Notes under the pieces: model-generated | The model's database searches: none | Seen by the model: the letters and a program-made list of their open reading frames with translations, nothing else | Told to the model about the DNA's origin: nothing | Source: Gemmatimonadaceae bacterium | GTDB lineage: Bacteria > Gemmatimonadota > Gemmatimonadetes > Gemmatimonadales > Gemmatimonadaceae | Length of the DNA: 64,000 nucleotides | Assembly: GCA_019752115.1 (NCBI GenBank) | Contig: JAIEMN010000016.1 | Span: forward strand, 1-64,000 | Reading direction: 5' to 3' | Position numbers and translations under genes: made by a program | Part shown: positions 25,607-43,066 of the stretch, in pieces | Layout of the letters: each line of letters starts with the position of its first letter | Numbering within the stretch: position 1 is the stretch's first letter

Positions 25607-27034
25607 GTGCCCGATGCGCGTCTCTGCGCTGTGACTAGCCCGCTCGTCCAGCACCTGACGGCCGGCCTCGCCGCGCTCGAACAAGGCGCGTACGCCGAGG
25701 CGATCCGCGCCTTCTCCGCGGCGCGGGCCCAGGCGCCACACGATGCCGCACTGGCGCTCGCGCTGGCGAACGCGCAGCGCCTGGGCGGGCGCGTACCCGA
25801 CGCCCGCGCCACCCTCACGGGCTTCGTGCAGAGCGATGCCGAGGTGTCGGTGGCCGAGTGCTACGAGTTGGGCGCCGCCCTGCTCGAAGCGGGGGCCCCA
25901 CAGGAAGCGATCGAGTGCCTCGAGGCCGTTCGCGCCCAACGGCCGCAGGACCCGGCCGTGATGAATGTGCTGGCCGGGGCGCGTCGGGCCGCGGGTCAAC
26001 CGGCCGCGGCCTGGCCCCTCTGCGAGGCGGCCCTCGCGCGCGATGCCACGACGGCTGCATTCCGCCTCACCGCCGCGCAGGTCCGCCACGAACTCGGGGA
26101 TCTCGCGGGTGCCCTGCACTGGCTCGACGAGGCCGAGCGGCTGCGCCCGAACCACAGCCCCACGCAGCTGCAGCGCGCCTACACGCTTCTATTGAAAGGC
26201 GGCGGCGCCGATGCGTCGGGGTGGGCCGCGTTTGAATCCCGCTCCCTCCCGGAACCGGCGACCGCGGCTAAGGCGTGGCACGGTGAACCACTCGCCGGGT
26301 GCAGCATTCTGGTCACCGCCGAGCAGGGCGTCGGCGACCAGTTCCAGTTTGTGCGCTTCGTCGCGCGCCTCGCCGAGCAGGGCCCGAGCCGGGTGGTCGT
26401 GCAATGCCATCGCGATGCGGTGACGCTGCTGCAGGCCAATGGCCTCGAGGCGATCGCGCGCGATGCGTCGCCCCCCGAGACCGACTGGCACGTGCCGATG
26501 CTCTCGCTCCCTCACCGCCTCGGGCTGGGGACGGCGGTGGATGGGGCGCGGGTACCCTATCTGCGCGCGCCGGGCGCGCCCCTCCCCCCGCGTCGCGCGT
26601 CGCGACGACTGGGGCTGGTGTGGGCCGGCAACCCGGCCTTTGTGGGCCGCGCCACGCGCGATCTGGACGCGGCGCTCCTCCCGCAGCTGGGGGAGATCGC
26701 CGACGTCGAATGGATCGGCCTGCAGGTCGGTTCGGCGCGCGCATCCGCTCCAGACTTCGTCAGTTTTGTTTCAGAGTCCTATTCATGGCTTGATAGTGCG
26801 TCGGTATTGGCTTCTCTGGATGGCCTCGTCACGACCGATACCGGCATTGCACACCTGGCGGGCGCCATGGGGGTCCGCACCTGGGTCCTCCTGCAGCACA
26901 TCCCCGATTGGCGCTGGGGGACCGCTGGCGCGACGTCATCCTGGTACCCCTCGATGACGCTGATCCGCCCCGACGGCTGGAACGACTGGGCGAGCGTGCT
27001 GCGCCACCTGCGCACCGCTCTCGCCGCGCCCTGA
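25607..27034 (+). CDS. TPR-containing glycosyltransferase (flagellin glycosylation candidate)
   Basis: This is a cytosolic protein of up to 475 residues. The N-terminal half (about 12-200) is a run of TPR-like helix pairs (ALEQGAYAEAIRAFSAARAQAP, ALHWLDEAERLRPNHSP). The C-terminal half is a heptosyltransferase/GT9-GT41-like domain with AEQGVGDQFQFVRF (about 238-251), RRLGLVWAGNP (about 331-341) and the TTDTGIAHLAGAMG motif (about 405-418). The same architecture occurs at 41555-43066. The start is GTG 25607 or GTG 25631. The gene is divergent from fliC, and I infer that it modifies flagellin. Its stop abuts the stop of the next gene on the opposite strand. Confidence 0.8.
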   Translation: MPDARLCAVTSPLVQHLTAGLAALEQGAYAEAIRAFSAARAQAPHDAALALALANAQRLGGRVPDARATLTGFVQSDAEVSVAECYELGAALLEAGAPQEAIECLEAVRAQRPQDPAVMNVLAGARRAAGQPAAAWPLCEAALARDATTAAFRLTAAQVRHELGDLAGALHWLDEAERLRPNHSPTQLQRAYTLLLKGGGADASGWAAFESRSLPEPATAAKAWHGEPLAGCSILVTAEQGVGDQFQFVRFVARLAEQGPSRVVVQCHRDAVTLLQANGLEAIARDASPPETDWHVPMLSLPHRLGLGTAVDGARVPYLRAPGAPLPPRRASRRLGLVWAGNPAFVGRATRDLDAALLPQLGEIADVEWIGLQVGSARASAPDFVSFVSESYSWLDSASVLASLDGLVTTDTGIAHLAGAMGVRTWVLLQHIPDWRWGTAGATSSWYPSMTLIRPDGWNDWASVLRHLRTALAAP

Positions 27035-28825
27035 TCAGCGGCGCCGTGCGACCAGGGTGGCCACGGTGACCGTGCTGCCGCCCACACGACGGGCCAACCG
27101 CGGGCGCCAGTGCGCCGGCGCCTGCTCGGGGAGGGTGGCCAGCAGCACCCCATCACTCACACCGTCATCGAAGCGACCGATGCGCCGCACCCCAGCATCG
27201 GCCAGACGCGCGTCATCACCGAATGTGGACGCCGGCAGCCACAGGGCATGCGCGCCACCGCCGATCTGCACCGACGTCGCCACGGCGAGCATGCCCCCGG
27301 GGGCGAGCCGCGCGGCCAGCTGTCCGATGAGCCGCAGCGTATCCGTCGCCGTGGCGTAGCGCGCAAGATTCGGGCACACGACCAGATCGTATGGCGCCTC
27401 ACCCGTCGCGACCGACGGCGACCACACCGTGGTGTGGGTCGTCGCACTCCCCCACGGACGCCCGACCGCCTGCGCCATCTGCTCAGTGGTCGGACGCTCA
27501 CGATCGGCGACGACCAGCGTACCCACCTGGTGCGAGAGCGCGACCAGCAGCGGTTCGCTTGCGTGCCCCAGCGCGAACGCACGCGTGGCGGGGCGCAGCA
27601 CGCCAGCGGTACTCAGCGCGTAGGCGAGCTGCCCATCGCGCCACGCGACCTCATGGCGCGCGTAGTAGTCGGTGCCGTGTCCTTCATGCAGCACGCGCGC
27701 CGCGGACGCGGCCCACCGCGCATCATCCCACGCGCGCGGCTGACAGACGCTGCTGAACGCCAGCGCGCCACGCCCTTCGTCACTCGGCAAGGCACACGTG
27801 GCCCGACGCGCGCGCCGCAGCGCATCCAGCCGCGCCAGCGCACCCGTCGCGCGCCCGTAGGTCTCCTGATCGCCATTCCCCTGCGCTTCCGCTGCCGTCT
27901 GCTGCAGCAGCCACTGCACGGCCGGCGTACCGGCCAGTCCGGCTTCGTCATCGGAGAGCGACGCATGCATCAGACGCGCGAGATCGTGCAGCGCGCTGTG
28001 CAGCTCGGTGCGCAACAGCGGGCCGGAACGCCCCAGCGCTGCAGCCAACGCCTGCCGCAACGGTCCGAGCGGCTCTGGCACCGGACGGAGCGGCACCCCC
28101 TGCGCGTCGAGCGCACCCATGGCCCGCCACTTGGCCGCCAGCATCTGCTGATTGGCCAGCGATCCCGCCACTCGCTCCGGACGCAACGCGACGCCGGAGC
28201 CATGTTCGTGGTGCCACAGCTTGGGGCTCCGCACGCGCTGCACATCCCACCCGGCGTGCAGGGCGCGGATGCAGTAGTCGTCGTCTTCGTGCCAGAAGCG
28301 CCCGAGCGACTCGTCGAAGGTGCCCACGGCGCGCGCGGTGGCCCCGCGCACCCAGAAGCAGCACCCCTGCACCGTGTCGCACGGCGCCGAGGCGTTCGTG
28401 TGCTCCGCCAGAATGTCGCGCCAGCTCTCATGCACACGCATGGAGAACGCCCAATGCCCGGCCACGCCGAGGCGCGGCTGCTGCGCAAATGCCTCGAGGA
28501 AGGGTGTTTCCCAGCCCGGCCCCACCTCGATGTCGTTGTCGAGGAAGACGAGCAGATCCTGATCACCCAGCTGCGGCGTGAGCTGATGGAAGAGATGATT
28601 CCGGCCGCCGCTCACCCCGAGATTATCGGACCGCAGCTCCACGTGAATGCGGGGATCGTCGAGCGCCGCCAGCCAGGCCGGCGTGGCGTCGCTCGACGCG
28701 TTGTCCACCACATACGCTTCCCACGGCGCGGTGGTATGCGCGCGCAGGGAATCCAGACACCGCTGCGTATGATGCAGCCCGTTGTGGGTCAGAATGCCAA
28801 TGCGCAGGGGCGCCGATGTGGACAT
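27035..28825 (-). CDS. family 2 glycosyltransferase fused to a methyltransferase-like domain
   Basis: This 596-residue protein begins with a GT-A type family 2 domain: THNGLHHTQRCLDSL, VDNASSD (40-46), the metal-binding FLDNDIEV (Asp96, Asp98), and WHEDDDYCIRALHAGW near residue 190. A helical linker follows. The last 200 residues look like a Rossmann methyltransferase fold (YDLVVCPNLARYA, LAARLAPGGMLAVATS) but no strong SAM glycine motif is visible, so activity is uncertain. It is the last gene of the minus-strand run starting at 35031. Its stop and that of 25607-27034 share a TGATCA hexamer. Confidence 0.8.
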   Translation of the reverse strand: MSTSAPLRIGILTHNGLHHTQRCLDSLRAHTTAPWEAYVVDNASSDATPAWLAALDDPRIHVELRSDNLGVSGGRNHLFHQLTPQLGDQDLLVFLDNDIEVGPGWETPFLEAFAQQPRLGVAGHWAFSMRVHESWRDILAEHTNASAPCDTVQGCCFWVRGATARAVGTFDESLGRFWHEDDDYCIRALHAGWDVQRVRSPKLWHHEHGSGVALRPERVAGSLANQQMLAAKWRAMGALDAQGVPLRPVPEPLGPLRQALAAALGRSGPLLRTELHSALHDLARLMHASLSDDEAGLAGTPAVQWLLQQTAAEAQGNGDQETYGRATGALARLDALRRARRATCALPSDEGRGALAFSSVCQPRAWDDARWAASAARVLHEGHGTDYYARHEVAWRDGQLAYALSTAGVLRPATRAFALGHASEPLLVALSHQVGTLVVADRERPTTEQMAQAVGRPWGSATTHTTVWSPSVATGEAPYDLVVCPNLARYATATDTLRLIGQLAARLAPGGMLAVATSVQIGGGAHALWLPASTFGDDARLADAGVRRIGRFDDGVSDGVLLATLPEQAPAHWRPRLARRVGGSTVTVATLVARRR

Positions 28826-28839
28826 GCCGACCGTGATGC

Positions 28840-30660
28840 TCAGGCGATGGCGCTCAGCGCCGTGAGCAGCGCATCGGCCGCATGCTCCCAGCTGAACTGC
28901 ATGGCCGTGGCAATGCCGGCCTCATTGCGCACGAGCGTGCCCACCTGACGCGCCGTATGCACGTCACGGAGATGTTGGACCAGCTGCTCGTGCTGTCGCG
29001 CGCCCCACGCGGCCCACTGGCCCATGACGCGCCCCTGATGCGCCGGCTCCAGCCCATCCACGTCGATCAGCCGCGCGTTCGCCGCCGTGAGGAACTCCGT
29101 GTGCGCCGAGTAGTTCGTGGCGATGACCTGCTTGCCCATCGACAGCAGTTCGAGCGCCTCGAGGTTCCACCCCTCGGCGCGCACCGCAAAGACACCGCAG
29201 TCCGCGGCGGCCATCTGCGTCGCGACCTCGCGCTGCGTTGGCAGCTCCTGGGTGATCAGCGTGATGCGCGATGCCATCGGCGACCGCCGGAACGGCATCA
29301 GCATCACATCGAGATCGGCCTTGCTCACGAACGGATTCCCGCAGACGAGCACCAGGCGCACGGCATCCTGCGGCGTGAAGGCGGCCTCGAACGCGCGCAG
29401 CAGCTCGAGCTGCCCCTTGCGCGGCTCCAGCTTGCCGACCTGCAGGAACACAGTGTCCTGGCTGCGCGCTGCCGGGGCGACGCCCTCATGGAAGATGGCA
29501 CGATCCACGCCCAGGGGCACGACGTGCACGGGCACGCTGATGCCATTGGCGCGAATCACCTCGCGCCCCCACTGCGAGCAGGTGATGATCGCGTCCTGCT
29601 GCTCCAGATGGTGCCGTTCGCGCGGCGTGAAGGTATCGAGTTCGAAGATGGTGAAGCCCACCTGCGGACCACGGCCGACATGGAGCGCCAGATCGAACTG
29701 CTGCGACAACCGCACGCTGGGCACGTCGGGGCGATACGCCTCCTGACGCACGAGCGCCTCGCGCAGGCGTGGATTGTCGAGCAGGGTGGCATCGACGGGG
29801 CCGAGCGGGAAGAACGTCACGGGGATCTGCCGCTGCTGCAGCGCGCGCAGCAGGTGCGAGGCCGCCACGCCGTAGCCGGTGCGGCTGTGCGGGGCAATGA
29901 ACGAAAAGCCGTCGCGCACCGCGTTCCACGCCGTCGCCGACGCGATCACGCCAACCGCCGCATTCGCCGCCGGCGCCGCGGCGGTTGCCGTCGCCGTGGC
30001 GTCAGACGCCATCGCCACCGCAATCACCGTGCTCATCGGCTGACCGGTGACCGGCAGCAGCACGACCTCGCCGTCCTGCTCGGCGAGCGCATGCGGCACG
30101 AAGCCGCAGGCGGCGAGCAACGCGGCCGTCTCGGCCCACACGCTGTCGGCGGCGGCATCGCTGACGCAGATCGCCACCACGCGGCCCGCGTCGATCAGCG
30201 GGCGCAAGCCGGTCGTACACCAGATGACCTGCGCCGCGCTGCTGTGCACGAAGACGCGGCCGTCCGATTCGAGACGCGCGTCGATCGACGCGCACAGCTC
30301 CGCCGGATCCTGCACATCGATGTCTTCGACCCAACCGCCAGCGTCCGCGGCGGCGTCCTGCAGCAACTGCACGGTGTCGAGATCGAGCCCCGCGACAAAC
30401 ACCGCCGGTGATCCGTTCGGCGCGGTGGCCGCGCTGAGGGCCACCACGCCGATCCCCGGATCGAGATCGAGCAGCGCATCGCCGGTTTCCAGCTGCGCAT
30501 CGAGAAAGACGCGCGTTTCAGCCTGCACGCCGCCGTCGGCTTCCAGCGCCTCGATGGTCGCGCGCTGCGGGTGGTCACCGGCCACGGGAATCTGGAAGCG
30601 CGGCGTTCCCTGCGCATCAACCTGGGCACTCGGAATCGGCATCACGATCGAATTGGACAT
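28840..30660 (-). CDS. GT4-type glycosyltransferase with degenerate N-terminal module
   Basis: This is a 606-residue protein. The C-terminal part (about 255-600) is a GT-B family 4 domain: SRTGYGVAASHLLRAL, VPLGVDRAIFH, FLQVGKLEPRKGQLELLRAF, then the acceptor-side FAVRAEGWNLEALELLSMGK. The N-terminal 230 residues contain a worn SAM-fold-like stretch (DALLDLDPGIGVVALSAA) that recalls FkbM methyltransferases but lacks a sure active site. The order suggests an enzyme for a modified saccharide. It is cotranscribed with three glycosyltransferase genes and asnB. Confidence 0.78.
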   Translation of the reverse strand: MSNSIVMPIPSAQVDAQGTPRFQIPVAGDHPQRATIEALEADGGVQAETRVFLDAQLETGDALLDLDPGIGVVALSAATAPNGSPAVFVAGLDLDTVQLLQDAAADAGGWVEDIDVQDPAELCASIDARLESDGRVFVHSSAAQVIWCTTGLRPLIDAGRVVAICVSDAAADSVWAETAALLAACGFVPHALAEQDGEVVLLPVTGQPMSTVIAVAMASDATATATAAAPAANAAVGVIASATAWNAVRDGFSFIAPHSRTGYGVAASHLLRALQQRQIPVTFFPLGPVDATLLDNPRLREALVRQEAYRPDVPSVRLSQQFDLALHVGRGPQVGFTIFELDTFTPRERHHLEQQDAIITCSQWGREVIRANGISVPVHVVPLGVDRAIFHEGVAPAARSQDTVFLQVGKLEPRKGQLELLRAFEAAFTPQDAVRLVLVCGNPFVSKADLDVMLMPFRRSPMASRITLITQELPTQREVATQMAAADCGVFAVRAEGWNLEALELLSMGKQVIATNYSAHTEFLTAANARLIDVDGLEPAHQGRVMGQWAAWGARQHEQLVQHLRDVHTARQVGTLVRNEAGIATAMQFSWEHAADALLTALSAIA

Positions 30661-30681
30661 AGCTCGGGGTGTCAGTGGCCG

Positions 30682-31890
30682 TTAGGCCGACCGGCGGAGA
30701 GAAGAAGTCGCCTCGGCAGCGAGGCGGAGCAGCGCACGAACCTGCGGATTCCAGCCGCGTCGCACCATCTCGCGCGACGCCGCCAGTGCGCGCGACCGAG
30801 CGGCCGCGCGGTCCTGATAGACCTGTTCCAGCGCCTCGACCAGATCATCCACGGCCACTTCGCCCCAGCCCTCGGTGCCGCGCAGCGTCGCTGGCGCACC
30901 GGTCAGTGGGCGATCGGCGGCGAGTGGAAGACACCACTCGGGCCGCGCCATATCGGTTTGACCGGTATTGGCCGCCACGATGGCCGGCACGGCCGACGCA
31001 TGGCATTCCAGCAGCGCGCGCGAAGGCTCCGCCTCGGCGCGGCTCGCGAAGACGGCGACATCGACGCCACTCAACAGCGTCGGCATCTGGGAGTTGGCAA
31101 TCAGACCGACATCGACCACGCTGTCGGCCGGGATGCCCTGGGCTTCGAGCCACGGCACGATCTGCCACAATCCGCCACGCAGATCGGGTAACTCACGATC
31201 GGTGGTGAGGCCGCGGAACGGCGTCGCCATCTCGGGAATCGGGTGCTGCCACGCGGTCACCAGCAACGCGTCCGGATGACGCGCGCGGAAGGCCTTGAAG
31301 GCGGCGAGCACCAGGTCCTGACCTTTGCGCCAGTCGAGGCGCGCACACGACCAGATGACGAAGCGTCCCGGCGCGAGCGCGGTATGGGGGCGCGGCTTGA
31401 AGTGCGAGACATCCACACCCGCGTGCCACTCGCGTACGTTGGTCAGCCCAGCGCTCTGCAGCAGCGCGGTCTGCCATGCCGACCCGGCCAGCAGCGCGTC
31501 ATGGGCGCGGCCGCGCGTGAGCGTTGCCGCATCACACGCCGTGTCGGTCAGCGCCGCGATCCCCAACTGGTGGGCAAAGCGTCGCGCCTGCGACGCCGGA
31601 TAGCTGCGCAGCTGCGCGCCCAGAAAGCGCAGCAGCGTGGCATTGATGGGTGCCGTCGAGGGCTGGGCCCATTCGGCAAGACGCGCCTGCCGCTCCGTAT
31701 AGAGCTGGCGCACCCGCACCTTGTCCGCTTCTTCGAGATAGGCCACGCTCGCACTCGGCGGCAGCAGCGGGATCACGCTGCCGGGCTGCTGCCGGTGCGC
31801 CTCGAGCGCGAGCATCAGCGCGGTGAGCTCCTGCCCGACATGCAGCCCCGGGGGCGCATCGATTGCCAGACGGACGGATGGAGTGGACAT
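30682..31890 (-). CDS. GT4-type glycosyltransferase
   Basis: This is a 402-residue GT-B glycosyltransferase. The nucleotide-sugar side has RFVIWSCARLDWRKGQDLV (about 215-233) and the EX7E-like region is ASRAEAEPSRALLECHASAVP. The start at ATG 31890 overlaps the upstream stop (ATGA), fixing the start and showing translational coupling. The N-terminal half is less conserved and presumably holds the acceptor-binding side. The sugar and acceptor are unknown. Confidence 0.82.
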   Translation of the reverse strand: MSTPSVRLAIDAPPGLHVGQELTALMLALEAHRQQPGSVIPLLPPSASVAYLEEADKVRVRQLYTERQARLAEWAQPSTAPINATLLRFLGAQLRSYPASQARRFAHQLGIAALTDTACDAATLTRGRAHDALLAGSAWQTALLQSAGLTNVREWHAGVDVSHFKPRPHTALAPGRFVIWSCARLDWRKGQDLVLAAFKAFRARHPDALLVTAWQHPIPEMATPFRGLTTDRELPDLRGGLWQIVPWLEAQGIPADSVVDVGLIANSQMPTLLSGVDVAVFASRAEAEPSRALLECHASAVPAIVAANTGQTDMARPEWCLPLAADRPLTGAPATLRGTEGWGEVAVDDLVEALEQVYQDRAAARSRALAASREMVRRGWNPQVRALLRLAAEATSSLRRSA

Positions 31891-33122
31891 CAGGCGACCC
31901 TCCGGAGTGTCCGGGTGCTGCGCGCGTGGACGGCCCGCTCGACAAGACCCAGCCACTGCCGGCCTTCGTGCTCCCAGGTAAAGCGCGACGACACGGCGGC
32001 CGCCCGTTCGCGGAACCCGTCGATCGAGTTGGCGAAGAAGGCATCGATCGCTTCGGCGAAGTCCTGCGGCGTGGCGAGATGCGCGTTGATCCCGACCCCG
32101 AGGTCACCAACGAAGCGACGCAGTTCCGGGCCGTGCGATGCGAGGATCGGCAATCCGACCGCCAGGAACTCGTACAGCTTATTCGGCGAGACGAGCCAGG
32201 TGTTCATGTCCGAGTGCGGATACGGAATGATCCCGGCGTCGGCTCCCACCGTCCACGCCAGCAGCTCCGCCGCCGACTTCTCGGGAATGAAGTGCACCCG
32301 CGAGCCGAGCAGGCCAAGCGCTTGCGCCCGTGCCTTGAGTGCGTCACCCACCGCCGAGCCCTTGCCCATGAAGGCCAGGACCACATCGGGATTCGTGACG
32401 CGCGCCATGCCGTCGACCAGTTCCTCGAGATTGCGGCTCCCGGCGAGGTTGCCCTGATAGAGCAACACCCGCTGCTGCGGTGTGGCGCCCACGAAGGCGC
32501 GCAGCGGGCTCTCCTCACGAGACACTGCCCCGCGATGCCGCGTGCTCGGACAGTTCAGCACGGTGACCGGGCGCTGACACTTGTACTTCATCGCCATCAG
32601 GTCGGCGATGCTGTCGTTCACCGTGACGATCACATCGGCGTGCCCGATGAGCGACCGCTCGAGCTCCTCGAGTGCCGCCGACGCGCCCTTCGTGAAGGGC
32701 TGCGACGGATAGAACTCATGCGCATCGTAGATGAGCGCCGCACCGTGAGCGCGCGCGGCGAGAATCCCGGCGGGGAGCTGCGGTAGATCGTTCGCGATGA
32801 TCACTTCGCACGGGAAGGCGAGCGCCGCGGCCAGCAGTCGCTGATGCTGATTGAACGTGCGGCCGGCCGCCTGCACGGCGGCCAGCTGCGGATCGCTTGG
32901 CTCCTCGGGGAGTCGGTCCGCCGGCACCCACGACCCCATCAAGCGGAAGATGGGGACATCGGGATAGCTCGTCTCGTCGGCGAGGTCACCCGGCGGGGCC
33001 GCCGCGATGACCAGCGTGGGCCAGCCGGCTTCGGTGAGCAGGCGGGCGCCGTCGAGAATGCGTCGATCGACGCGATCGTCGGTGCACAGGTGCACCACGC
33101 GGTAGCGATTCGTCAGAGGCAT
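31890..33122 (-). CDS. GT4-type glycosyltransferase
   Basis: This 410-residue GT-B enzyme has an N-terminal acceptor domain with IIANDLPQLPAGILAA and YDAHEFYPSQPF (about 135-146). The C-terminal donor domain has VLLYQGNLAGSRNLEELV (about 228-245) and SPNKLYEFLAVGLPILAS, typical of family 4 enzymes. The ATG at 33122 lies 7 bases after the asnB stop. An in-frame start further upstream would run into asnB and looks less likely. Confidence 0.84.
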   Translation of the reverse strand: MPLTNRYRVVHLCTDDRVDRRILDGARLLTEAGWPTLVIAAAPPGDLADETSYPDVPIFRLMGSWVPADRLPEEPSDPQLAAVQAAGRTFNQHQRLLAAALAFPCEVIIANDLPQLPAGILAARAHGAALIYDAHEFYPSQPFTKGASAALEELERSLIGHADVIVTVNDSIADLMAMKYKCQRPVTVLNCPSTRHRGAVSREESPLRAFVGATPQQRVLLYQGNLAGSRNLEELVDGMARVTNPDVVLAFMGKGSAVGDALKARAQALGLLGSRVHFIPEKSAAELLAWTVGADAGIIPYPHSDMNTWLVSPNKLYEFLAVGLPILASHGPELRRFVGDLGVGINAHLATPQDFAEAIDAFFANSIDGFRERAAAVSSRFTWEHEGRQWLGLVERAVHARSTRTLRRVA

Positions 33123-33129
33123 GGGAGGG

Positions 33130-35031
33130 TCAGGCGGCGAGTGCCACCGACTCCGCATCACGGAATCGGCGCAGCCACCACTCGAAGCAGAGGAGCGACC
33201 AGATGACGAGGCGGTGATTCACACGCCCCGAGACATGTTCATCGAGCAGGGTCTGCACGCCGGCCGGCTCGAGAAAGTCGTAGAGCCGGGTGTCGCGACG
33301 GGCGAGCAACGCGCGGATATAGTCGATGCTGCGTCCGCGGAACCAACTGCCATCGGGCGCCGAGAAGCCCTGCTTCTTGCCCTTGGCGTACTCGGCCGGC
33401 ATGTACCGGGAGAACGCCTGTCGCAGAATCAGCTTGCCATCACCCGTTTCATTGAAGTACTTGTCGGCCTTCGCGCCCGGCGTGTTCTCGTCGAAGCGGA
33501 CGATCGAATCGACGTGCTTGAGCTTGAACTTGACCGGCACGCGCAGCGCAAAGTCCACCAGATCATTGTCGAGGAAGGGCACACGCGTTTCGAGCCCGTG
33601 CGCCATCGACAGCTTGTCCTCCACGAGCAGCAGCCCGGGGAGGAACGTCGACAGCTCGAAGTAGAGCGAGTGATTGACATAGTCGTCGGGCCCCATGGTG
33701 AGGAACGAGCGACGACGAAGGACATTGCGGAACGCCGCCTCGGGCGGATGCTGCTGCAGCGCCTGCTGCAGCACGGGGCGGAAGAAGCTGCTCCGCAGAT
33801 GATCCGGCACGAGGCGCTGCCAGTACGCGTAGTACTTGTCGAGATACTGTGCCGCATCGTCATTCTTCACCGCGCGATAGTAGCGCCACGGGTAGCCGGC
33901 GAAGATCTCGTCACCGCCGGTCCCGGCAAGCACCACCTTCACGAAGCGGGAGGCGAGGCGCGACACATAGTAGTTGGGATAGCTCTGGCCCACGCGCAGA
34001 TCTTCGAGGTGCCAGACCAGCTCGGGGAGAATGCGCTCCATGTCGCCGGCCTTGAGCACGACCTGATAGTGCTCGGTGCGAAACGCATTGGAGAGCATCT
34101 CGGCCTTGGCGCGCTCGTCGAAGCCCTGCTCGATGCCGGAGGCCGACGACACGTCGAAACCGGCGGTGAAGCTCTTCACATTCGGCAGGCGGCTCGCGGT
34201 GACGCAGGTAATGGCGCCCGAGTCGATGCCACCGCTCAGATACGTGCCAATCTCGACGTCGGCGCCGATCTGCCGCGTCACCGCCTGACGAAAGAGCCGG
34301 TCGAGCTCCTCGACATACTCCGGCGCACTGACGCCGGTTTCGTGCTTGAATTCGTAGTCCCACCAGCGCCGGACCTTGAACGAGGACCGGTCGCCGAGCT
34401 GCAGCGTCGCGCTGTGCGCACGCGGCAGCAGATGGACGCCGTCGAACAGCGTCTGATCGCTGAAGACGTTCTGGAAGGTGAAGTACTCGCCGAGGGCGGC
34501 CGTGTTCACGGTCACGCGCATCGCCGGATGCTGCAGCAGCGACTTGATCTCCGAGCCGAAGAGCAGCGTGTCGCCACGCCAGGCGTAGTACAGCGGCTTC
34601 ACGCCAAAGCGATCGCGGGCAAGGAAGACGGTGCCGTCCTGCACATCGTAGAGCGCAAAGGCGAACATGCCGTTGAACTTTTCGACGCATTTGGGGCCCC
34701 ACACCCGCCAGGCCTCGAGAATCACCTCGGAGTCCGTCTGCGAGCGGAAGCGCGCGCCCTGCCGTTCGAGCTGCTTGCGGAGCTCGCGCCAGTTGTAGAT
34801 CTCGCCGTTGTACGTGAGCACGTACCGCTCATCGACCGACAGCATCGGCTGATGACCTGCCGGCGAGAGATCCAGAATGGCGAGTCGCCGGTGGCCGAAG
34901 CCGACCCCATTGGCTGTCCAGACCCCCGATCCATCGGGTCCTCGATGGCGCACGACGTCCGTCATGGCCCTGACGAGGTCAGGGGCCACGGGTGTGCCGT
35001 GCACATTGATGACACCGGTGATGCCGCACAT
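33130..35031 (-). CDS. asnB: glutamine-dependent asparagine synthetase-like amidotransferase
   Basis: This is a class II glutamine amidotransferase of 633 residues. Cys2 (MCGITG) is the glutaminase nucleophile, with HRGPDGSG and YNGEIYNW in the glutaminase half and the ATP-pyrophosphatase PP-loop SGGIDS at 266-271. True asparagine synthetases are this length, but homologues in glycan loci amidate sugar carboxylates. Here it heads a run of glycosyltransferase genes and a second homologue lies across the intergenic region at 36522. I infer a sugar-amide role; asparagine synthesis cannot be excluded. Confidence 0.85.
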   Translation of the reverse strand: MCGITGVINVHGTPVAPDLVRAMTDVVRHRGPDGSGVWTANGVGFGHRRLAILDLSPAGHQPMLSVDERYVLTYNGEIYNWRELRKQLERQGARFRSQTDSEVILEAWRVWGPKCVEKFNGMFAFALYDVQDGTVFLARDRFGVKPLYYAWRGDTLLFGSEIKSLLQHPAMRVTVNTAALGEYFTFQNVFSDQTLFDGVHLLPRAHSATLQLGDRSSFKVRRWWDYEFKHETGVSAPEYVEELDRLFRQAVTRQIGADVEIGTYLSGGIDSGAITCVTASRLPNVKSFTAGFDVSSASGIEQGFDERAKAEMLSNAFRTEHYQVVLKAGDMERILPELVWHLEDLRVGQSYPNYYVSRLASRFVKVVLAGTGGDEIFAGYPWRYYRAVKNDDAAQYLDKYYAYWQRLVPDHLRSSFFRPVLQQALQQHPPEAAFRNVLRRRSFLTMGPDDYVNHSLYFELSTFLPGLLLVEDKLSMAHGLETRVPFLDNDLVDFALRVPVKFKLKHVDSIVRFDENTPGAKADKYFNETGDGKLILRQAFSRYMPAEYAKGKKQGFSAPDGSWFRGRSIDYIRALLARRDTRLYDFLEPAGVQTLLDEHVSGRVNHRLVIWSLLCFEWWLRRFRDAESVALAA

Positions 35032-35332: not shown

Positions 35333-36502
35333 ATGACTACGCTTTCCAATCACCCCGCACGCGGTGCGTCGGTGCGCGATCTCCGCGTGCTGATGATCGC
35401 GTTTGCGAGCACCGCCCACGGGGGCGTGCATCGCAAGCTCGCCGAGCAGGTGCGGGAAATGCGGCGCCATATCCCCCAGACGCTGGCCCTCGTCTTCGCC
35501 GACACGCGCGAGGCGCCGGCGCCGGCCAATCCGCCGTACACCCTCGTGGACCTGCGCGGGGGCGGCTTCGATCCGGCCAGCCGATCGCTCGCCTGGTTCC
35601 ACTGCTGGGAGGCGGTCGAGCAGTTCAAGCCCGACGTGGTCTACATGCGCTACCCGTTGTACGACGGGCATGTGCTGCGCTTCCTGCGCGAGGCCCCGCC
35701 GGTGGTGTTCGAACTGCAGACCAAGTTTGATCTCGAGTTGCCCCCCGCCGCCGCCGAGATCGAGCGGCAGTGGGCGCGCCGCGTGCTGCCGGAGACGGCG
35801 GGGCTCGTGGCCGTGACGCCCGAGATCCTGACCCATGAACTCACGCGCGGGCGCGTCGCGATCCCCGGGCATGTCATGGCCAACGGCGCCGATCCGGCGT
35901 TGCTCCCCTTCGTGACACCGCAGCTGCCGCCCGATCGCATCAACCTGGTGTGCGTGGCGTCATTCTATCCGTGGCATGGTGCCGATCGCGTCATCTGCGG
36001 CATGGCGGCCGAGCCTGACGTGTCGGATGTGCATCTGCATCTGGTTGGCGACGGCGGTTCGGTCCCCGCGCTCCGCCAGCTGGCGATCGACCTTGGCGTC
36101 CAGGATCGCGTGCACTTCCATGGCCTGATCCCGGCCGACGCCCTTGATCCGTTCTATGCGCAGGCGCATCTCGCCATCGGCGTGCTCGCCCCACAGCGCA
36201 AAGGGCTCACCGAACTGTGCGCGCTCAAGCATCGCGAGTATGCGCTCCGCGGATTGCCATTCGTCGCAGCGGGCACCGATATCGATTTTCCGGCCTCGCT
36301 CCCGTGGCTGCGCACCGTGGACGCCGATGACACGCCGATCTCGCCCCGCATGCTGCGCGCGTTCGCGCTCGGCTGGACGAACGAAAAGCGGCGCCGGCAG
36401 ATCCGGCAGTGGGCCGAACAGCACCTCTCGTGGAGCGCCAAGATTCGGGCGCTGACCGAGTTCCTTGGCACCGTCGCGCGTCCGCGCGTGAAGGCTGCCT
36501 GA
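35333..36502 (+). CDS. GT4-type glycosyltransferase
   Basis: This is a GT-B glycosyltransferase of 389 residues from the ATG at 35333 (a GTG at 35324 would add three). The N-terminal side has STAHGGVHRKLAEQVREM and VVYMRYPLYDGHVLRFL. The donor side has RINLVCVASFYPWHGADRVI, HLVGDGGSVPALRQL, and a C-terminal region with KHREYALRGLPFVA in place of the usual EX7E motif. It heads a tightly spaced plus-strand operon (asparagine-synthetase-like, glycosyltransferase, acyltransferase, formyltransferase). Confidence 0.82.
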   Translation: MTTLSNHPARGASVRDLRVLMIAFASTAHGGVHRKLAEQVREMRRHIPQTLALVFADTREAPAPANPPYTLVDLRGGGFDPASRSLAWFHCWEAVEQFKPDVVYMRYPLYDGHVLRFLREAPPVVFELQTKFDLELPPAAAEIERQWARRVLPETAGLVAVTPEILTHELTRGRVAIPGHVMANGADPALLPFVTPQLPPDRINLVCVASFYPWHGADRVICGMAAEPDVSDVHLHLVGDGGSVPALRQLAIDLGVQDRVHFHGLIPADALDPFYAQAHLAIGVLAPQRKGLTELCALKHREYALRGLPFVAAGTDIDFPASLPWLRTVDADDTPISPRMLRAFALGWTNEKRRRQIRQWAEQHLSWSAKIRALTEFLGTVARPRVKAA

Positions 36503-36521
36503 CCATGCGGAGTTCCTGATC

Positions 36522-38264
36522 ATGTGCGGTATTGCCGGTCTGCTCGACCACACCCGCGGCGCGAATCCGTCGTGGATCGATCCGTTCACCGACGCGCTGG
36601 TGCATCGCGGCCCCGACGGCCGCGGCACCTGGTGCGACGGCCCGGTGGCGCTCGGCCATCGCCGACTGGCGATTCTCGACCCGTCGCCGCTCGGCGCCTG
36701 TCCGATGCCGTACACGGCGCCGGATGGCCGCACGCTGCGCATCACGTTCAACGGGGAGATCTACAACTTCCTCGAGCTGCGCGACGAGCTGCGGCGCGAC
36801 GGCTACGCCTTTCGGACCGAAACCGATACCGAGGTCATCGCCGCGGCGTGGCACCGCTGGGGCCTCGACTGCCAGCGCCGCTTCAACGGGATGTGGGCGT
36901 TTGCCCTCTGGGATGAGCAGACGCGCACGCTGACGCTCTCGCGTGATCGCTTTGGTGTGAAGCCGCTCTACCTCGCCGTCATGGGGAGCACGATCGCCTT
37001 CGCGTCGGAGATCAAGGCGTTTCTCGCGCTCCCGCACTTTCCGCGTACGCTCAACCAGCAGGCCGCGACGCGCTATTTCACGCATCCCAATGCGTACGAT
37101 GGCATCTCGCCCGACACCGCCCTCAATGGTGTCATGCGCCTGCCGCCGGGCCACTCGCTAACGATCACCCCCGAGGGCACGCAGGGCTTCTCGCGCTGGT
37201 GGAACACCCGCGATCACCTGCCCAGTGTGCCGGCACGCTATGAGGAACAGGTCGAGCAGTTCCGCGACCTGTTCCTCGACAGCGTGCGCCTGCGCATGCG
37301 CAGTGACGTGCCGATCGGGACCTCCCTGAGCGGGGGGCTCGACAGCAGCGCCGTGGCCTCGGGCATGGCCGCGGTCGCGCGCGACGGACATCTCGCCCTC
37401 GATCGCTGCGCGAGCGACTGGCAGCGGACCTTCATTGCGAGCTTTCCCGGGCATCCGGTGGATGAGCGGGAATTCGCCGATCTCGTCGTGGCGCACACCG
37501 GCGCGAAGCCGACCTACTGGAACTTCCAGCAGGCCACCGCGCTCCGCGGACTCGCCGCCAGTGTCTATGCGCTGGATGATCTGAGCGCCGCGCCAGCCGT
37601 GCCCGTGCTGAACATCTACAAGACGATGCGCGAGCACGGCGTGGTCGTGACGCTCGATGGGCACGGCGGCGATGAGCTGCTCGCCGGCTACTCCTGGTAT
37701 CGCGAACGGCCGCTCGATCAGCTCAATGACGCGCTCGATCAGGACTTTCACGTCACGCACCTGCCGGCCATCCTGCGCAACTATGATGGCTGCTCCATGG
37801 CCAACGGCGTCGAAGTGCGCTCGCCGTTTCTCGACTGGCGCCTCGTCACCTACGCGATGGCGCTGCCCCCGGAAGCCAAACTCGATGCGACCTACAGCAA
37901 GCGCATTCTGCGCGATGCGCTGACGGGCATCCTGCCCGACGGGATTCGCACCCGCACGACCAAGTTCGGCTTCGAGTCGCCGCTGGTGGCGTGGGCCAAC
38001 GGCCCGCTGGGCGCCGTCCTGCGCGCGGCCAGCCAGACCGAGATCTGGCGGAGTGCCCCGTCGGCCGCTCAGCCCGAGCAGGTGGCCGCCATCATCCAGG
38101 CACGTACAGCCACGCGTCCGCATGGCTTCACCGAAGCCGATCGCGTAGCGGTGGCCTTCGGATACCGGTTGCTCACGTTCGTGCTCTGGTGCGAACACTA
38201 TCTCGCCATCGGCGACCGCCGCATCACCCGCATGGTCGGCGCGCCGACCGCGGCGGCCGCATGA
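36522..38264 (+). CDS. asnB: second glutamine-dependent asparagine synthetase-like amidotransferase
   Basis: This 580-residue class II amidotransferase has Cys2 (MCGIAG), HRGPDGRG, FNGEIYNF and the PP-loop SGGLDS at 270-275. It differs clearly from the divergent homologue at 33130, so this is not a recent duplication. Its stop overlaps the next start (ATGA). In sugar loci such enzymes turn uronic acids into uronamides, and the neighbouring acyl- and formyltransferases support a tailoring role here. The activity is inferred. Confidence 0.84.
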   Translation: MCGIAGLLDHTRGANPSWIDPFTDALVHRGPDGRGTWCDGPVALGHRRLAILDPSPLGACPMPYTAPDGRTLRITFNGEIYNFLELRDELRRDGYAFRTETDTEVIAAAWHRWGLDCQRRFNGMWAFALWDEQTRTLTLSRDRFGVKPLYLAVMGSTIAFASEIKAFLALPHFPRTLNQQAATRYFTHPNAYDGISPDTALNGVMRLPPGHSLTITPEGTQGFSRWWNTRDHLPSVPARYEEQVEQFRDLFLDSVRLRMRSDVPIGTSLSGGLDSSAVASGMAAVARDGHLALDRCASDWQRTFIASFPGHPVDEREFADLVVAHTGAKPTYWNFQQATALRGLAASVYALDDLSAAPAVPVLNIYKTMREHGVVVTLDGHGGDELLAGYSWYRERPLDQLNDALDQDFHVTHLPAILRNYDGCSMANGVEVRSPFLDWRLVTYAMALPPEAKLDATYSKRILRDALTGILPDGIRTRTTKFGFESPLVAWANGPLGAVLRAASQTEIWRSAPSAAQPEQVAAIIQARTATRPHGFTEADRVAVAFGYRLLTFVLWCEHYLAIGDRRITRMVGAPTAAAA

Positions 38265-39622
38265 CTTCAGGATCTGTGTCGTTCGAATCATCCGCCATGC
38301 CCTTCGCCGCGGGCGGCACCCGCCGCCGCGTGCTGATCGGGACCTGCGAGATCGCCCATCACGTGGTCGATCTGGTCGAAGGGTTTCGCCGCCTCGGGCA
38401 CGACGCCACCAGCGTCATGTACCACCGGAACAAGTACTATCCCGACGCGACCTACGACATCGACGCGACGGGCACCTCGCTGAGCACCGAGTCGCTGCTG
38501 TCGCTCATCAACAGCCACGACCTGTTCATCTTCATCTGGACCAGCCTGCTCCCGGACAACAACGACTTCCCGGTGCTGCGCACGCTGGGCAAGGAGATCG
38601 TCACGATCTTCTGTGGAGATGACGTACGCCACTGGTCGGCCTACTCGCAGGACTACGGGCGCGATCTGCGCGACCGGGTTCCGGTCCTCGACACGATTCC
38701 ACTCGAGAAGCAGTTGCGCACCCTGCGCCGCGCCGAGATGGTGGCCGACGCGGTGTTCTCGCGCCCCAATCAGCACAACCTGGGGGTCCGCCCCTATCAC
38801 CACTTCCACCTGCCGATCGACCTGCGCCGGATCACGGCGCACATCCCGGATCGGGAGATTCCCGTGGTGGTACACGCCCCGTCCAATCAGGGGGGTAAGG
38901 GATCGGACCTGGTGCTCACCGCGCTCGACACCCTCAAGGCCGAGGGCGTGGCGTTCGAGCTGCGCCTGTTGACCGACGTGTCCAACGGCGAAGTCCTCGC
39001 CGCGCTCGCCGATGCGGACGTCGCGATTGATCAGGTCTTCATTCCCGGGATCTCGCGCTTTGGTCAGGAGGCGCTCGCGAGCGGCTGTGCACTCGCCAGT
39101 GTCATTGAATCGCCCTATGCGGAGTCACCGGATGTCCCGCCGGTGTGGCACATCGGCGAACACACCCTGGTGGAGCCGTTCCGCGAGCTGCTCAGCAACC
39201 GCGCGCTCCGTCGCTCGCTCGCCGAGCGGGCGCGGACGTACGTCGAGCAGCACTACGATGTGGCGGTCGTGGCGAAGGGGATTCTCGATGTGCTGGATCA
39301 GCGCACGCGCGGGCCCTTCGATCACTATCCGCGCTTCTATCTGACCGACTATCGCCTCCCGCCGCAGCACACCATTCCGCCCGACGTCGCCGATGCGACC
39401 TCACAGGTGGTGCGCCGCTGGGGGGTGCCGCATGACGCCGATGTGCGGCGACTGATTCGCGAAGGGTTTCTACGCGACATCCCCTTCGGAGGGTTTGACA
39501 CGCTTCCACGCTGGGCGCCGGGAACCGGCGCGCGCCGTCCATCCGAGGCGCCGTGGCCTCGGAATCTGGAAGCGTCCCATAATGCCGCGGCGCCTGCCGC
39601 TGTTGGAGTGAGCGATTCATGA
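38261..39622 (+). CDS. glycosyltransferase-like protein
   Basis: This 453-residue protein has a GT-B-like layout: an N-terminal RVLIGTCEIAHHVVDLVEGF, a central VVVHAPSNQGGKGSDLVLTAL (about 207-227) and a C-terminal VFIPGISRFGQEALASGCAL that stands where family 4 enzymes have the EX7E motif. The last 60 residues are basic and loosely conserved. The ATG at 38261 overlaps the amidotransferase stop and its own stop overlaps the next start. It is less typical than its neighbours, so acceptor binding or an unusual donor is possible. Confidence 0.72.
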   Translation: MTSGSVSFESSAMPFAAGGTRRRVLIGTCEIAHHVVDLVEGFRRLGHDATSVMYHRNKYYPDATYDIDATGTSLSTESLLSLINSHDLFIFIWTSLLPDNNDFPVLRTLGKEIVTIFCGDDVRHWSAYSQDYGRDLRDRVPVLDTIPLEKQLRTLRRAEMVADAVFSRPNQHNLGVRPYHHFHLPIDLRRITAHIPDREIPVVVHAPSNQGGKGSDLVLTALDTLKAEGVAFELRLLTDVSNGEVLAALADADVAIDQVFIPGISRFGQEALASGCALASVIESPYAESPDVPPVWHIGEHTLVEPFRELLSNRALRRSLAERARTYVEQHYDVAVVAKGILDVLDQRTRGPFDHYPRFYLTDYRLPPQHTIPPDVADATSQVVRRWGVPHDADVRRLIREGFLRDIPFGGFDTLPRWAPGTGARRPSEAPWPRNLEASHNAAAPAAVGVSDS

Positions 39623-40632
39623 CCTTGACTGACAGCTACGCCCACGAAGCCGTCGAAGCGCCCCTCGAGGTGTGCGACCTCGCGGACATGCCCGATGCCG
39701 AATGGGATGCGTTCGTGGATCGCTGCTACAACGGCACGCTCTTTCACAAGCGGGCGTTTCTGGCGTATCACGAGCCCGGACGCTTTCACTTCACCTGGCT
39801 TGGCTTTCGCGACGGCCATGGCGCGCTCATGGGGGTGCTGCCGTGCGTCATTCGCCACGGCGAGCTGCTGAGCCCCATGGGGGCCTCGTACGGCGGCATC
39901 ATTGCGCTGCCGTCGTCGTTCAGCATGATGTGGCGCATGGTGGATGCCCTGCAGCGGTGGGTCCGGCAGCAGGAGCTCCGCCGCGTATCGTTCACCTATG
40001 CGCCGCTCACGTACAACCGCGGCATGTCGCAGGACCTGGATTTCGCGATGCTGTACGGCGGCTTCCAGAATTCCCGGAATCTGTTCTCCAGCGTCGTCGA
40101 TCTCTCGGCGTTCGACGACGAGGATCCCACGCACCATCTCACGCCAATGGGGCGCCGGGCGATTCGCAAATCGGAGAAGGAAGGGATCGTCGTCTCCGAG
40201 AGCGATGACCTGGCCGAGTATTATCCGATCCTCGAAGAGAACAAGCGGAAGTTCGATGTGAAGCCGGCGCATTCGCTGGCCGAGCTCGAACGGATCCGCA
40301 CGCTCGTCCCGGGCACGTGGCGGCTCATGGCCGCCCGACACGAAGGCGAGCTGGTCGCCGGCGTGCTCACCACGCACTGCAACCCGCGGGTGCTGCTGGC
40401 GTTCTACATCGCCAGCCGCCCGGAGTATCAGCACATGCGCCCGGTGAACCGCGTGCTCTTCGACACCGCCAAGTGGGCGCGCGCGAACGGGTACTACTTC
40501 CTCGATCTCGGCGTGTCGATGAACACGGCGTCGGACAATCCGATGGAGCCGGCGTGGAGCCTGATCAGCTTCAAGGAGTTCATCGGCTCGCGCGGGTTCC
40601 TGCGTCCGTCGTACACCTGGACCCCCACCTGA
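39619..40632 (+). CDS. FemAB/GNAT-type acyl- or aminoacyltransferase
   Basis: This 337-residue cytosolic protein belongs to the GNAT-like FemAB/BioF2 superfamily. Visible parts are the LFHKRAFLAYH segment, GASYGGI, the HLTPMGRRAIRKSEKEGI helix (residues 172-189) and the closing YFLDLGVSMNTASDNP and SLISFKEFIGSRG. Homologues in polysaccharide loci transfer acyl or amino-acid groups to amino sugars or glycans. ATGA overlaps on its 5' side show coupling to the glycosyltransferase. The donor is unknown. Confidence 0.72.
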   Translation: MTLTDSYAHEAVEAPLEVCDLADMPDAEWDAFVDRCYNGTLFHKRAFLAYHEPGRFHFTWLGFRDGHGALMGVLPCVIRHGELLSPMGASYGGIIALPSSFSMMWRMVDALQRWVRQQELRRVSFTYAPLTYNRGMSQDLDFAMLYGGFQNSRNLFSSVVDLSAFDDEDPTHHLTPMGRRAIRKSEKEGIVVSESDDLAEYYPILEENKRKFDVKPAHSLAELERIRTLVPGTWRLMAARHEGELVAGVLTTHCNPRVLLAFYIASRPEYQHMRPVNRVLFDTAKWARANGYYFLDLGVSMNTASDNPMEPAWSLISFKEFIGSRGFLRPSYTWTPT

Positions 40633-40646
40633 GCGCGACGCCGCCA

Positions 40647-41519
40647 ATGCGCCGTCTCGCGCTCCTCGGCTGGAACGACAACACGCAGCGGTGTCTTGAC
40701 GCGCTCGCGTATCGGCAGCGCGTGCCGTCGGTCGTGGTGGTGCCGGCCGGCGTGGAGTCCAGCGCGCTGCAAGCGCAGGCACGAGGGTGGGGGATTGAGG
40801 TACGGGTCGCCGATCGGCAGACCGCGTTGCGAACGCTGCTCCCCGACATCGCGCTCATCGCCAGCGCGTCGTGGCCGCTCAAGATCAGCGCGGAGGATAT
40901 CGCCGCCTTTCCCGATGCGATCATCAATGTGCATGGCGCCGCCTTGCCGCGGTGGCGTGGGCCGCATCCGCTCAACTGGGCACTCCTCGCCGACGACCCC
41001 ACGATTGGTGTTACCGTGCATCATGTCGCCGTTGGCCTCGACGAAGGCGACATCATTCTGCAGCAGACGTTGCCGCTGAACGACGAGGATACGCTGCTCG
41101 ATGTACGGGCGCTGGTGCACCGCGCGGGCGCCGCATTGCTGGCGGATGCGGTCGCGCGGCTCGATCGCGGTGACGCGCCACGCATCCCACAGGATCCCGC
41201 AGCCGCGACGCAGGCCCGTCGCCGCACCCCCGACGATGGTCGCATCACCTGGTCGGCCTCGGCACGCACCTGCTTTGCGCACATCCGCGCGAGCGGACGA
41301 CCCACGCCCGGTGCCTTTACGCATCGCGGCGACGAGCGCGTGACCATCTGGCGGGCCGCGATTACGACGTCTCCCGCCGGATCCGAGCTCCCCGGTACGG
41401 TTCTGCAGACGCATCCGATGCCAATCGTGCGCACGGGCGACGGCGGCGCGCTGGCGCTGCTCGAGTGGGAAGGACCGACGCTGGCAGTCGGCGATCGACT
41501 CGCGTCGCCGACCGGCTAG
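40647..41519 (+). CDS. sugar N-formyltransferase-like protein
   Basis: This is a 290-residue enzyme of the methionyl-tRNA formyltransferase superfamily, which uses N10-formyltetrahydrofolate. The catalytic set Asn94, His96 (INVHGAALP) and Asp132 (GLDEGDI) is complete, with the PRWRGPHPLNWAL loop between them. It lacks the full C-terminal tRNA-binding domain of Fmt and lies in a sugar operon, so formylation of an amino sugar (as in VioF or WbkC) is the better reading. It is the last gene of the plus-strand operon and converges on the TPR glycosyltransferase. Confidence 0.8.
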   Translation: MRRLALLGWNDNTQRCLDALAYRQRVPSVVVVPAGVESSALQAQARGWGIEVRVADRQTALRTLLPDIALIASASWPLKISAEDIAAFPDAIINVHGAALPRWRGPHPLNWALLADDPTIGVTVHHVAVGLDEGDIILQQTLPLNDEDTLLDVRALVHRAGAALLADAVARLDRGDAPRIPQDPAAATQARRRTPDDGRITWSASARTCFAHIRASGRPTPGAFTHRGDERVTIWRAAITTSPAGSELPGTVLQTHPMPIVRTGDGGALALLEWEGPTLAVGDRLASPTG

Positions 41520-41554
41520 CTCCCGCGCGCCGCGCGGCCGCTTAGCGGCTCTGC

Positions 41555-43066
41555 CTAGCGGTTCCGCGCCCCGGCGCTCACCGCGCCATTCGCCGCCACC
41601 AACCCGCCAAGCCGCGCCTGCACTTCGAGCACCGCCGTCCGCCATTCGCCGGCGGCCGCCTGCCGGATGGGCTCCACGCTCGGATACCACCGATGCGCCG
41701 GCGTCTCCGCGGCCCAGCGCCAGTCGAGCCCCACCTGCGGCAGGAGCAGCCACGTGCGACGCCCCAGCGCGCCAGCCAGATGCGCCACCGCACTGTCGAT
41801 CGTGATCACCGCATCGAGTTGCCGCAGCAGCTGCGCCGTCCGCTGAAACGTGGTGAGCAGCGACGACGGATCCTGCAGTGACAGCCGGCGCGGGAGCGTC
41901 GCCAGATCAGCCGCGCGCTCCCCCTGCTGCAGGCTCACCCAGGTGACATCCGTGCGCTTGAGCAGCGGCTCGAACACGCCCAGCGGAATGGAGCGGTGCA
42001 TGTCGTTCACATGCGTGGCGCTCCCCGCCCACACCAGGCCGATGCGCGGCCGATCGCCGGGCAACTCGGCGCACCACGCCGCCAGCGCGGCATCCATCAC
42101 GGCCGGCACTTTGAGATACGGTGTGGCGCTCGCCATCACCGCCGCCGTGGTGTGCAACCCCAGACGATGCGGCAACGCCGTCAGCGCGACCTGCACATCG
42201 TGCGCGGGCACCGGATCGGAGAAACTCACCACCGCGTCGGCCACGTCGCTGCCGGCGAGCAGGGAGTGCAGCGCCGTGGGGACCACCAACACCACCCGCC
42301 CGCCCTGCGCCCGCAGTGGCACCAGCCATCGCACGAACTGCAGCGTGTCGCCCAACCCCTGCTCGGCATGCACCAGCAGCGTGCGGCCGGCGAGCGACTC
42401 GCCCTCCCATCGCGGCTGCGTCCACTTGCGACGCATGCCCTCGAGCAGCGAGGTGCGTTCGCGCCATTCGTACGCGCGCCAGCCGTCGGCCCACGCGCCG
42501 CGCGCCAGCAGCGTCATCGCGCGATTGAATTGGGCGTTGGCGTGCTCCGGTGCCCGTTGCAGCACGGCATTCGCGGCCGCTTCGGCCTCCTCGTACCGCC
42601 CGGCGAACATCAGCGCCGCCGAGCGATTGGCCTGGGCTTCGAGATGGGTCGGCTCAAGCGCGAGGGCCCGATCGTACGCGGTCACCGCGTCGGTGACGCG
42701 ACCGGCAATCTGCAGCGCGCGACCGTACGCATACCACGTCGCGGCATCACGCGGCTCAAGGGTCGCCGCCTTCTTGAGCGGACTGAGCGCATCATCGGCG
42801 CGGCGCGCCGCCACGAGCGCATTGCCCAGATTCACCAGAATCGGCGCCGCCTCCGGCAGCTCCTTGGCCAGCGGCTTGAGCATGGCGATCGCGCCATTGG
42901 CATCGCCCTGCTCGAGACGCAGCACCCCCAGCGCATTCCGGACCCCCACGTGACGCCCGTCCTTCGCGTGCGCCTCGGCCAGCAATGCAATCGCGCGCGC
43001 CGGCTGTCCGGCGCGCGCGAGGGTCAAGGCTTCCTGATACGTCGCTTCGATTTCAGCTCGGGACAT
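41555..43066 (-). CDS. TPR-containing glycosyltransferase co-transcribed with flgL and fliW
   Basis: This is a 503-residue protein. The N-terminal half (about 5-210) holds five or six TPR-like pairs (ARAGQPARAIALLAEAHAKD, LVNLGNALVAARRADDALSP, YAYGRALQIAGRVTDAVTAY). The C-terminal half is the GT9/GT41-like domain with VHAEQGLGDTLQFVRW (about 252-267), RPRIGLVWAGSATH and TIDSAVAHLAGALGRRTW. It is the same architecture as 25607-27034. It lies 22 bases after fliW on the same strand, so it is part of the flgL operon with a sigma-28-type promoter. This ties it to the filament and makes it the best candidate flagellin glycosyltransferase. Confidence 0.82.
   Translation of the reverse strand: MSRAEIEATYQEALTLARAGQPARAIALLAEAHAKDGRHVGVRNALGVLRLEQGDANGAIAMLKPLAKELPEAAPILVNLGNALVAARRADDALSPLKKAATLEPRDAATWYAYGRALQIAGRVTDAVTAYDRALALEPTHLEAQANRSAALMFAGRYEEAEAAANAVLQRAPEHANAQFNRAMTLLARGAWADGWRAYEWRERTSLLEGMRRKWTQPRWEGESLAGRTLLVHAEQGLGDTLQFVRWLVPLRAQGGRVVLVVPTALHSLLAGSDVADAVVSFSDPVPAHDVQVALTALPHRLGLHTTAAVMASATPYLKVPAVMDAALAAWCAELPGDRPRIGLVWAGSATHVNDMHRSIPLGVFEPLLKRTDVTWVSLQQGERAADLATLPRRLSLQDPSSLLTTFQRTAQLLRQLDAVITIDSAVAHLAGALGRRTWLLLPQVGLDWRWAAETPAHRWYPSVEPIRQAAAGEWRTAVLEVQARLGGLVAANGAVSAGARNR

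Follow-up and report, generated by a model that had tools for sequence, protein, structure and literature searches.

In Caulobacter crescentus, the TPR part of FlmG binds flagellin, and both parts of the protein are required for the glycosylation of flagellin in the cytoplasm (PMC7591256). Flagellin islands of Enterobacteriaceae and Geobacillus encode formyl-, methyl-, acetyl- and aminotransferases as well as GT41-methyltransferase fusions, and formyltransferases, methyltransferase fusions and hypervariability are already known features of such islands (PMC4875605, PMC5109656). The b-Cool locus of Bordetella combines five glycosyltransferases with one asparagine-synthase-like protein, and its product contains two uronamide residues (PMC12407052). 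The a-type flagellin of Pseudomonas aeruginosa carries a long rhamnose-linked glycan with hexuronic acids and possible amino/formyl substitutions (PMC3958885), and archaellin carries a threonine-amidated uronate (PMC2952790). For Gemmatimonadota, a literature search returned no report of flagellin glycosylation, and one may exist.

The locus analysed here lies in a stretch of 64,000 nucleotides (contig C16:1-64000, hereafter the window) of a Gemmatimonas-type genome (Gemmatimonadota) of 5.17 Mb (67% GC, 97% complete), in which gene classes were assigned by Pfam and NCBIfam matches and gene starts by a simple codon model and motifs, with a possible error of some codons. At its left, fliD and fliC (24657-25421, minus strand) are read leftward and are followed by the rightward gene of a first TPR glycosyltransferase, TPR-A (25631-27034, plus strand; the start may be 25607). 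At its right, the second TPR-GT9 protein, TPR-B (41555-43066), fliW (43089-43568; Pfam FliW) and flgL (43595-44506; assigned by Pfam Flagellin_N/C and its place in the flagellar cluster) are all read leftward from the minus strand. Between these flanks, a minus-strand operon of five genes runs from 35031 to 27035 and encodes class II amidotransferase 1 of the asparagine-synthase family (33130-35031, 633 aa; Asn_synthase/GATase), two GT4-type glycosyltransferases (31890-33122, Pfam; 30682-31890, Pfam Glycos_transf_1), a protein in which a domain of ~210 residues is fused to a GT4 (28840-30660; Pfam for the GT4), and a GT2 glycosyltransferase with a weak methyltransferase-like C-terminal part (27035-28825; Pfam Glycos_transf_2 5e-17, Methyltransf_12 0.068). 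A plus-strand operon, likewise of five genes, runs from 35372 to 41519 and encodes a GT4-type glycosyltransferase (35372-36502, start possibly 35324; Pfam), class II amidotransferase 2 of the same family (36522-38264, 580 aa; Asn_synthase/GATase), a probable glycosyltransferase (38297-39622, start possibly 38261; Pfam Glyco_trans_1_2 at an E of only 0.053), a FemAB/GNAT-fold acyl- or aminoacyltransferase (39619-40632; Pfam Acetyltransf_6 3e-10) and a formyltransferase nearest to the ArnA/Fmt type (40647-41519; Formyl_trans_N+C).

The sequence-only reading had listed such an inventory between fliC and flgL, and every gene class was confirmed, in kind and in order; the five other glycosyltransferases that it counted are clear, and the protein at 38297-39622, for which a PDB sequence search gave no convincing match, is probably one more. 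Its placing of one TPR glycosyltransferase divergent from fliC holds for TPR-A, and its placing of the other within the flgL-fliW operon stands, since TPR-B follows fliW by 22 bp and flgL and fliW are spaced by 26 bp.

The presumed acceptor, FliC, is a flagellin of 254 aa (Pfam Flagellin_N/C) that consists of N- and C-terminal helical domains and little else. The description of this protein as short with a Ser/Thr-rich middle was borne out as to its length, whereas the richness in Ser/Thr (15 of the 35 residues at 139-173) is weakly suggested, since the permutation test gave p=0.08. Flagellins of the genus measure 246-257 aa, as against 364-369 aa in G034, G053 and G057; in G053 and G057 (L024, L025), where flagellin has ~110 additional residues, the fliC-fliW gap holds no gene at all. 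Tandem pairs of flagellin genes occur in G010 (L028, G010:C133:6886-8329) and G012 (L010), and a single gene in the others.

Standard sigma54 and sigma28 consensus searches upstream of fliC gave no match. A conserved sigma28-like motif built from the fliC upstream regions of relatives identified a site, TCAAGTTC-N12-CCGACACT (that is, CTCAAGTTC-N12-CGACACT; 25499-25528, minus strand), 78 bp upstream of fliC. This site is the top match in the window, with a score of 34 compared to a maximum of 15.5 in five Markov simulations, and the motif precedes 19 fliC copies in 18 genomes. Scanning the window with the same motif revealed no comparable site upstream of the island operons, and the suggested co-expression of these operons under a flagellar sigma factor is therefore unsupported, the conserved site standing before fliC only.

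Both TPR glycosyltransferases consist of N-terminal TPR repeats and a C-terminal GT-B/GT9-like domain. The Pfam match to GT9 (Glyco_transf_9) is above cut-off for TPR-B and below threshold for TPR-A, a candidate flagellin O-glycosyltransferase whose assignment is backed by homology and alignment; a PDB sequence search with the catalytic domain gave no match. Among 61 genomes, this domain is present in 29 of the 33 relatives that bear flagellin and in none of the 28 that do not (Fisher 3e-13, uncorrected for relatedness). Equal conservation in unflagellated relatives, the outcome named in advance as one that would speak against the island, is thus not what is seen. The four flagellin-positive genomes in which the domain was not detected are G017 and G020, both fragmented, and G053 and G057. 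A bulky flagellin middle and a TPR glycosyltransferase seem to replace one another, though genera with a fused enzyme (see below) have both.

A contig scan with the TPR glycosyltransferase alignment placed the nearest named relatives in Gemmatimonas and in Gemmatimonadaceae MAGs. Orthologues of TPR-B are found in five other genomes, each directly adjoining fliW. A flagellar role of the whole superfamily was considered and rejected, as flagellin was found close to no more than 4 of the 66 distant homologues; a recent duplication giving rise to TPR-A and TPR-B was likewise rejected, the two falling into separate clades.

The interval between fliC and flgL spans 3.0-23.8 kb across the 16 genomes of the genus that have both genes on one contig, and its content changes while the flanks (fliD, fliC, fliW, flgL and an NtrC-type regulator) remain constant. 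In G005 and G016 it is reduced to a lone TPR glycosyltransferase between fliC and fliW. Elsewhere it includes the nonulosonate synthase NeuB (G001, G004 and G018; in G009, NeuB is on the flgL contig, 13 kb from flgL), RmlA (G006, G010 and G024), UDP-GlcNAc 2-epimerase (G012 and G013), or DegT, LuxC, LuxE, an AMP-ligase and a GT41 protein (G021 and G025). The last two genomes share a collinear island of about twelve genes (L015 and L017, respectively) with LuxC, LuxE, AMP-ligase, ACP and DegT, and its LuxC/LuxE/ACP cassette is similar to the acyl-sugar flagellin islands of pseudomonads. Within the island of the window, no Pfam match was obtained for a flippase, polymerase, ligase or initiating phosphoglycosyltransferase, which fits sequential glycosylation in the cytoplasm. 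With glycan genes linked to fliC, variable content between constant flanks, and presence with flagellin but absence without it, the interval has the marks of a flagellin island, and we consider it a hypervariable flagellin glycosylation island with a probability of roughly 85%.

The ~210-residue domain at the N-terminus of the 28840-30660 protein (30010-30636, minus strand) matched no Pfam family, even with the threshold relaxed to E=1. Its AlphaFold model (pLDDT 87.6) adopts a class I methyltransferase fold, with a Foldseek match at E 1.8e-7 and similarity to PrmA-type methyltransferases (VIA Z ~12; rmsd to PrmA of 3.5 over 171 residues). The Rossmann-like methyltransferase fold is accompanied by a conserved D..PG.G in motif I, not the canonical GxGxG, and the domain alignment contains no conserved acidic residue after strand 2 (the F_G034 row, an antisense ORF, was left out of the motif comparison). 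Because of this altered SAM motif and the lack of a conserved acidic residue, the modelled domain is likely a degenerate pseudo-enzyme, for which SAM binding is possible.

The domain occurs in 22 of the 61 relatives and in 31 of 395 genomes of the phylum, in one copy per genome at the search threshold; all 31 have flagellin, which is itself found in 107 of the 395 (naive p 7e-20; by genus 9e-6). Wherever the genes share a contig it lies near fliC or flgL, except in G032 (62 kb apart). It is either standalone or fused to a glycosyltransferase (window:30010-30636; L004:1879-2532; L013:4163-5164; L017:3662-4606). In nine genomes of other genera, a single fused ORF of about 1,123-1,428 residues lies between fliC and fliW, with the order TPR, GT9-like domain, ~210-residue domain and GT4 in eight of them (G122, G134, G185, G262, G282, G366, G077 and G034; L133-L138, L144 and L022); in G248 (L145) the ORF joins TPR glycosyltransferase and GT4, and the domain is not detectable. 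Seven of these nine genomes are among the 31 domain-positive ones, the others being G077 and G248. The GT4 of the fused proteins best matches the window's 30682-31890 protein (E 1e-50 to 1e-70), which is closer to it than the GT4 of the 28840-30660 protein. In a FastTree phylogeny, provisional as it covers a single domain, the catalytic domains of the fused proteins are monophyletic (0.98); a wider clade (0.94) unites them with TPR-A and has 47 tips, 45 of them from Gemmatimonadota. As these parts are joined in one protein in other genera, TPR-A, the domain-glycosyltransferase fusion and the GT4 of the window are best understood as components of a single system that modifies flagellin.

Among the tailoring enzymes, both amidotransferases begin with MCGI, providing an N-terminal Cys, and contain the SGGxDS motif (SGGIDS and SGGLDS); both score above cut-off for the glutamine-hydrolysing asparagine synthase family TIGR01536 (NCBIfam). 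The formyltransferase, whose top PDB match is ArnA (8e-31), keeps the catalytic N-x-H...D motif (NVHGAALPRWRG, LDEGDI) and is closest to ArnA/Fmt rather than to any family dedicated to a single sugar. We know of no such TPR glycosyltransferase or amidotransferase named for the a-type island of P. aeruginosa. The class II enzymes might instead form amide bonds with amino acids, yielding no free uronamides, and the FemAB protein would then provide a second aminoacylating step; this protein has a weak PDB match to an aminoacyl-tRNA-dependent peptide synthase (5e-4), and archaellin provides an example of a uronate amidated with an amino acid (PMC2952790). However, both amidotransferases keep the full glutaminase motif and lie well above the asparagine-synthase cut-off, which favours ammonia transfer and leaves amidation by amino acids unlikely.

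The island contains no sugar-nucleotide genes, with neither DegT nor a dehydratase, and the specific glycan hence stays a prediction. True NeuB, present at E<1e-70 in some relatives, is absent from this genome at 97% completeness, where only partial matches to the NeuB family were found (E 3e-13). Pseudaminic acid is therefore an unlikely donor, and a nonulosonate donor was rejected for this genome. Its sole full-length DegT aminotransferase (C18:132637) is WbpE-like (5e-90), and it has two UDP-sugar dehydrogenases. The DegT gene belongs to a Wbp-like cluster (WbpA/B/D/E-like) that also encodes a UDP-HexNAc-type dehydrogenase, a Gfo/Idh oxidoreductase and a hexapeptide acetyltransferase, with the gene layout of the UDP-GlcNAc3NAcA pathway. 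The cluster (L130:11268-15559, G000:C18) adjoins carB and a GDP-mannose dehydratase gene. An island-specific role of the pathway was rejected, as it is found in 57 of the 61 genomes of the order irrespective of flagella, and it presumably serves something general as well. An intermediate of the UDP-GlcNAc3NAcA pathway offers a carboxylate that could be amidated and, in its free 3-amino group, a site for formylation. The predicted diamino-uronate product of the Wbp-like cluster is accordingly the most plausible acceptor that we can propose for the amide and formyl tailoring.

A further alternative is that the core (TPR glycosyltransferase, domain-glycosyltransferase fusion and GT4) glycosylates flagellin, while the amidotransferases, the FemAB protein and the formyltransferase serve another surface glycan. 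Amidotransferase and formyltransferase genes are sporadic in the islands of relatives, and the genome has a separate exosortase locus (L041, at approximately 283-303 kb of G000:C19; an exopolysaccharide locus with genes for the exosortase EpsH, a Wzy-type protein and an amidotransferase) with an asparagine-synthase gene and a formyltransferase match 8 kb away. Nevertheless, in the window the tailoring genes are interleaved with glycosyltransferase genes inside the same two operons, with abutting starts, and orthologues of amidotransferase 2 (G002; G007, 67%; L052, 74%) lie in a fliC-adjacent island in L052 and adjoin fliW in G002 and G007, so that we regard this division of labour as quite improbable. 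That the island as a whole serves the synthesis of a capsule, O-antigen or exopolysaccharide and lies among flagellar genes by chance is most improbable of all: the amidotransferases and the FemAB protein do come near XrtA/exopolysaccharide families in NCBIfam, below cut-off, but Wzx, Wzy, ligase and initiating enzyme went undetected in the island, an exosortase/Wzy locus exists separately on C19, and the co-occurrence with flagellin is strict.

Of the earlier proposal of a flagellin O-glycan with uronamide and N-formyl groups, the glycosylation island is thus upheld by synteny, co-occurrence and the sugar cassettes of relatives, whereas the specific glycan is a prediction, with acceptor pathways outside the island and sporadic tailoring genes. 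Gene content, synteny, flagellin co-occurrence, fusion proteins and the Wbp-like cluster being direct observations, we infer the acceptor, the linkage, the sequence of the steps and the resulting glycan as follows. In the cytoplasm, TPR-A would use its TPR repeats to bind new flagellin and would, in a FlmG-like manner, attach the first sugar to Ser/Thr residues. The GT4 and GT2 enzymes, among them the 30682-31890 protein and the domain-GT4 fusion, would extend the chain sugar by sugar on the protein, the amidotransferases would convert uronic acid carboxylates to amides, and the formyltransferase would cap an amino group, on residues most likely supplied by the genome's UDP-GlcNAc3NAcA-type (Wbp-like) pathway. 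As a tentative and more specific model, in which we place limited confidence, Gemmatimonadaceae would dedicate to flagellin an enzyme made of a TPR arm that binds flagellin, a GT9-like domain that initiates, the ~210-residue domain and a GT4 that extends, fused in some genera and split in the window; the ~210-residue domain would act as a clamp on flagellin or glycan and not as a methylase, and exchanged sugar cassettes joined to this core would determine the product, here a formylated uronamide glycan.

The assertion that a combination of uronamide and N-formyl groups is new to flagellin glycans was overstated, as formyl, hexuronate and uronamide each have a precedent in glycans. What is new, and the most interesting part, is the flagellum-linked ~210-residue domain, without earlier description, whose occurrence tracks flagellin. 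These findings would add the phylum Gemmatimonadota to the groups in which flagellin glycosylation is modular and offer a natural series for island growth, from a lone TPR glycosyltransferase over a fused enzyme to islands of more than ten genes; if the amide and formyl prediction is true, they also add a bacterial flagellin on which the presence of uronamide could be tested.

Compared by description and not by sequence, the TPR glycosyltransferases resemble FlmG in their TPR N-terminus and C-terminal GT-B-type domain; in contrast to that system, the window has two such proteins and many extra glycosyltransferases, its genome is without true NeuB, and other genera have the enzyme in one protein with a GT4 and the methyltransferase-fold domain (PMC7591256). 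Hypervariable glycan genes adjoining flagellin are shared with the islands of Enterobacteriaceae and Geobacillus, whose core is SPINDLY/GT41, whereas the core here, in another phylum, is of the TPR-GT9 type and is accompanied by two class II amidotransferases, none being named in either report (PMC4875605, PMC5109656). The b-Cool locus is similarly rich in glycosyltransferases, with an asparagine-synthase-family protein, and gives a precedent for uronamide; its product, however, is a cell-surface oligosaccharide not shown on flagellin, and the Bordetella locus has its own uronate-sugar synthases and is without a formyltransferase (PMC12407052). The hexuronate and formyl chemistry of the P. aeruginosa a-type flagellin, finally, is akin to that predicted here from enzyme classes (PMC3958885).
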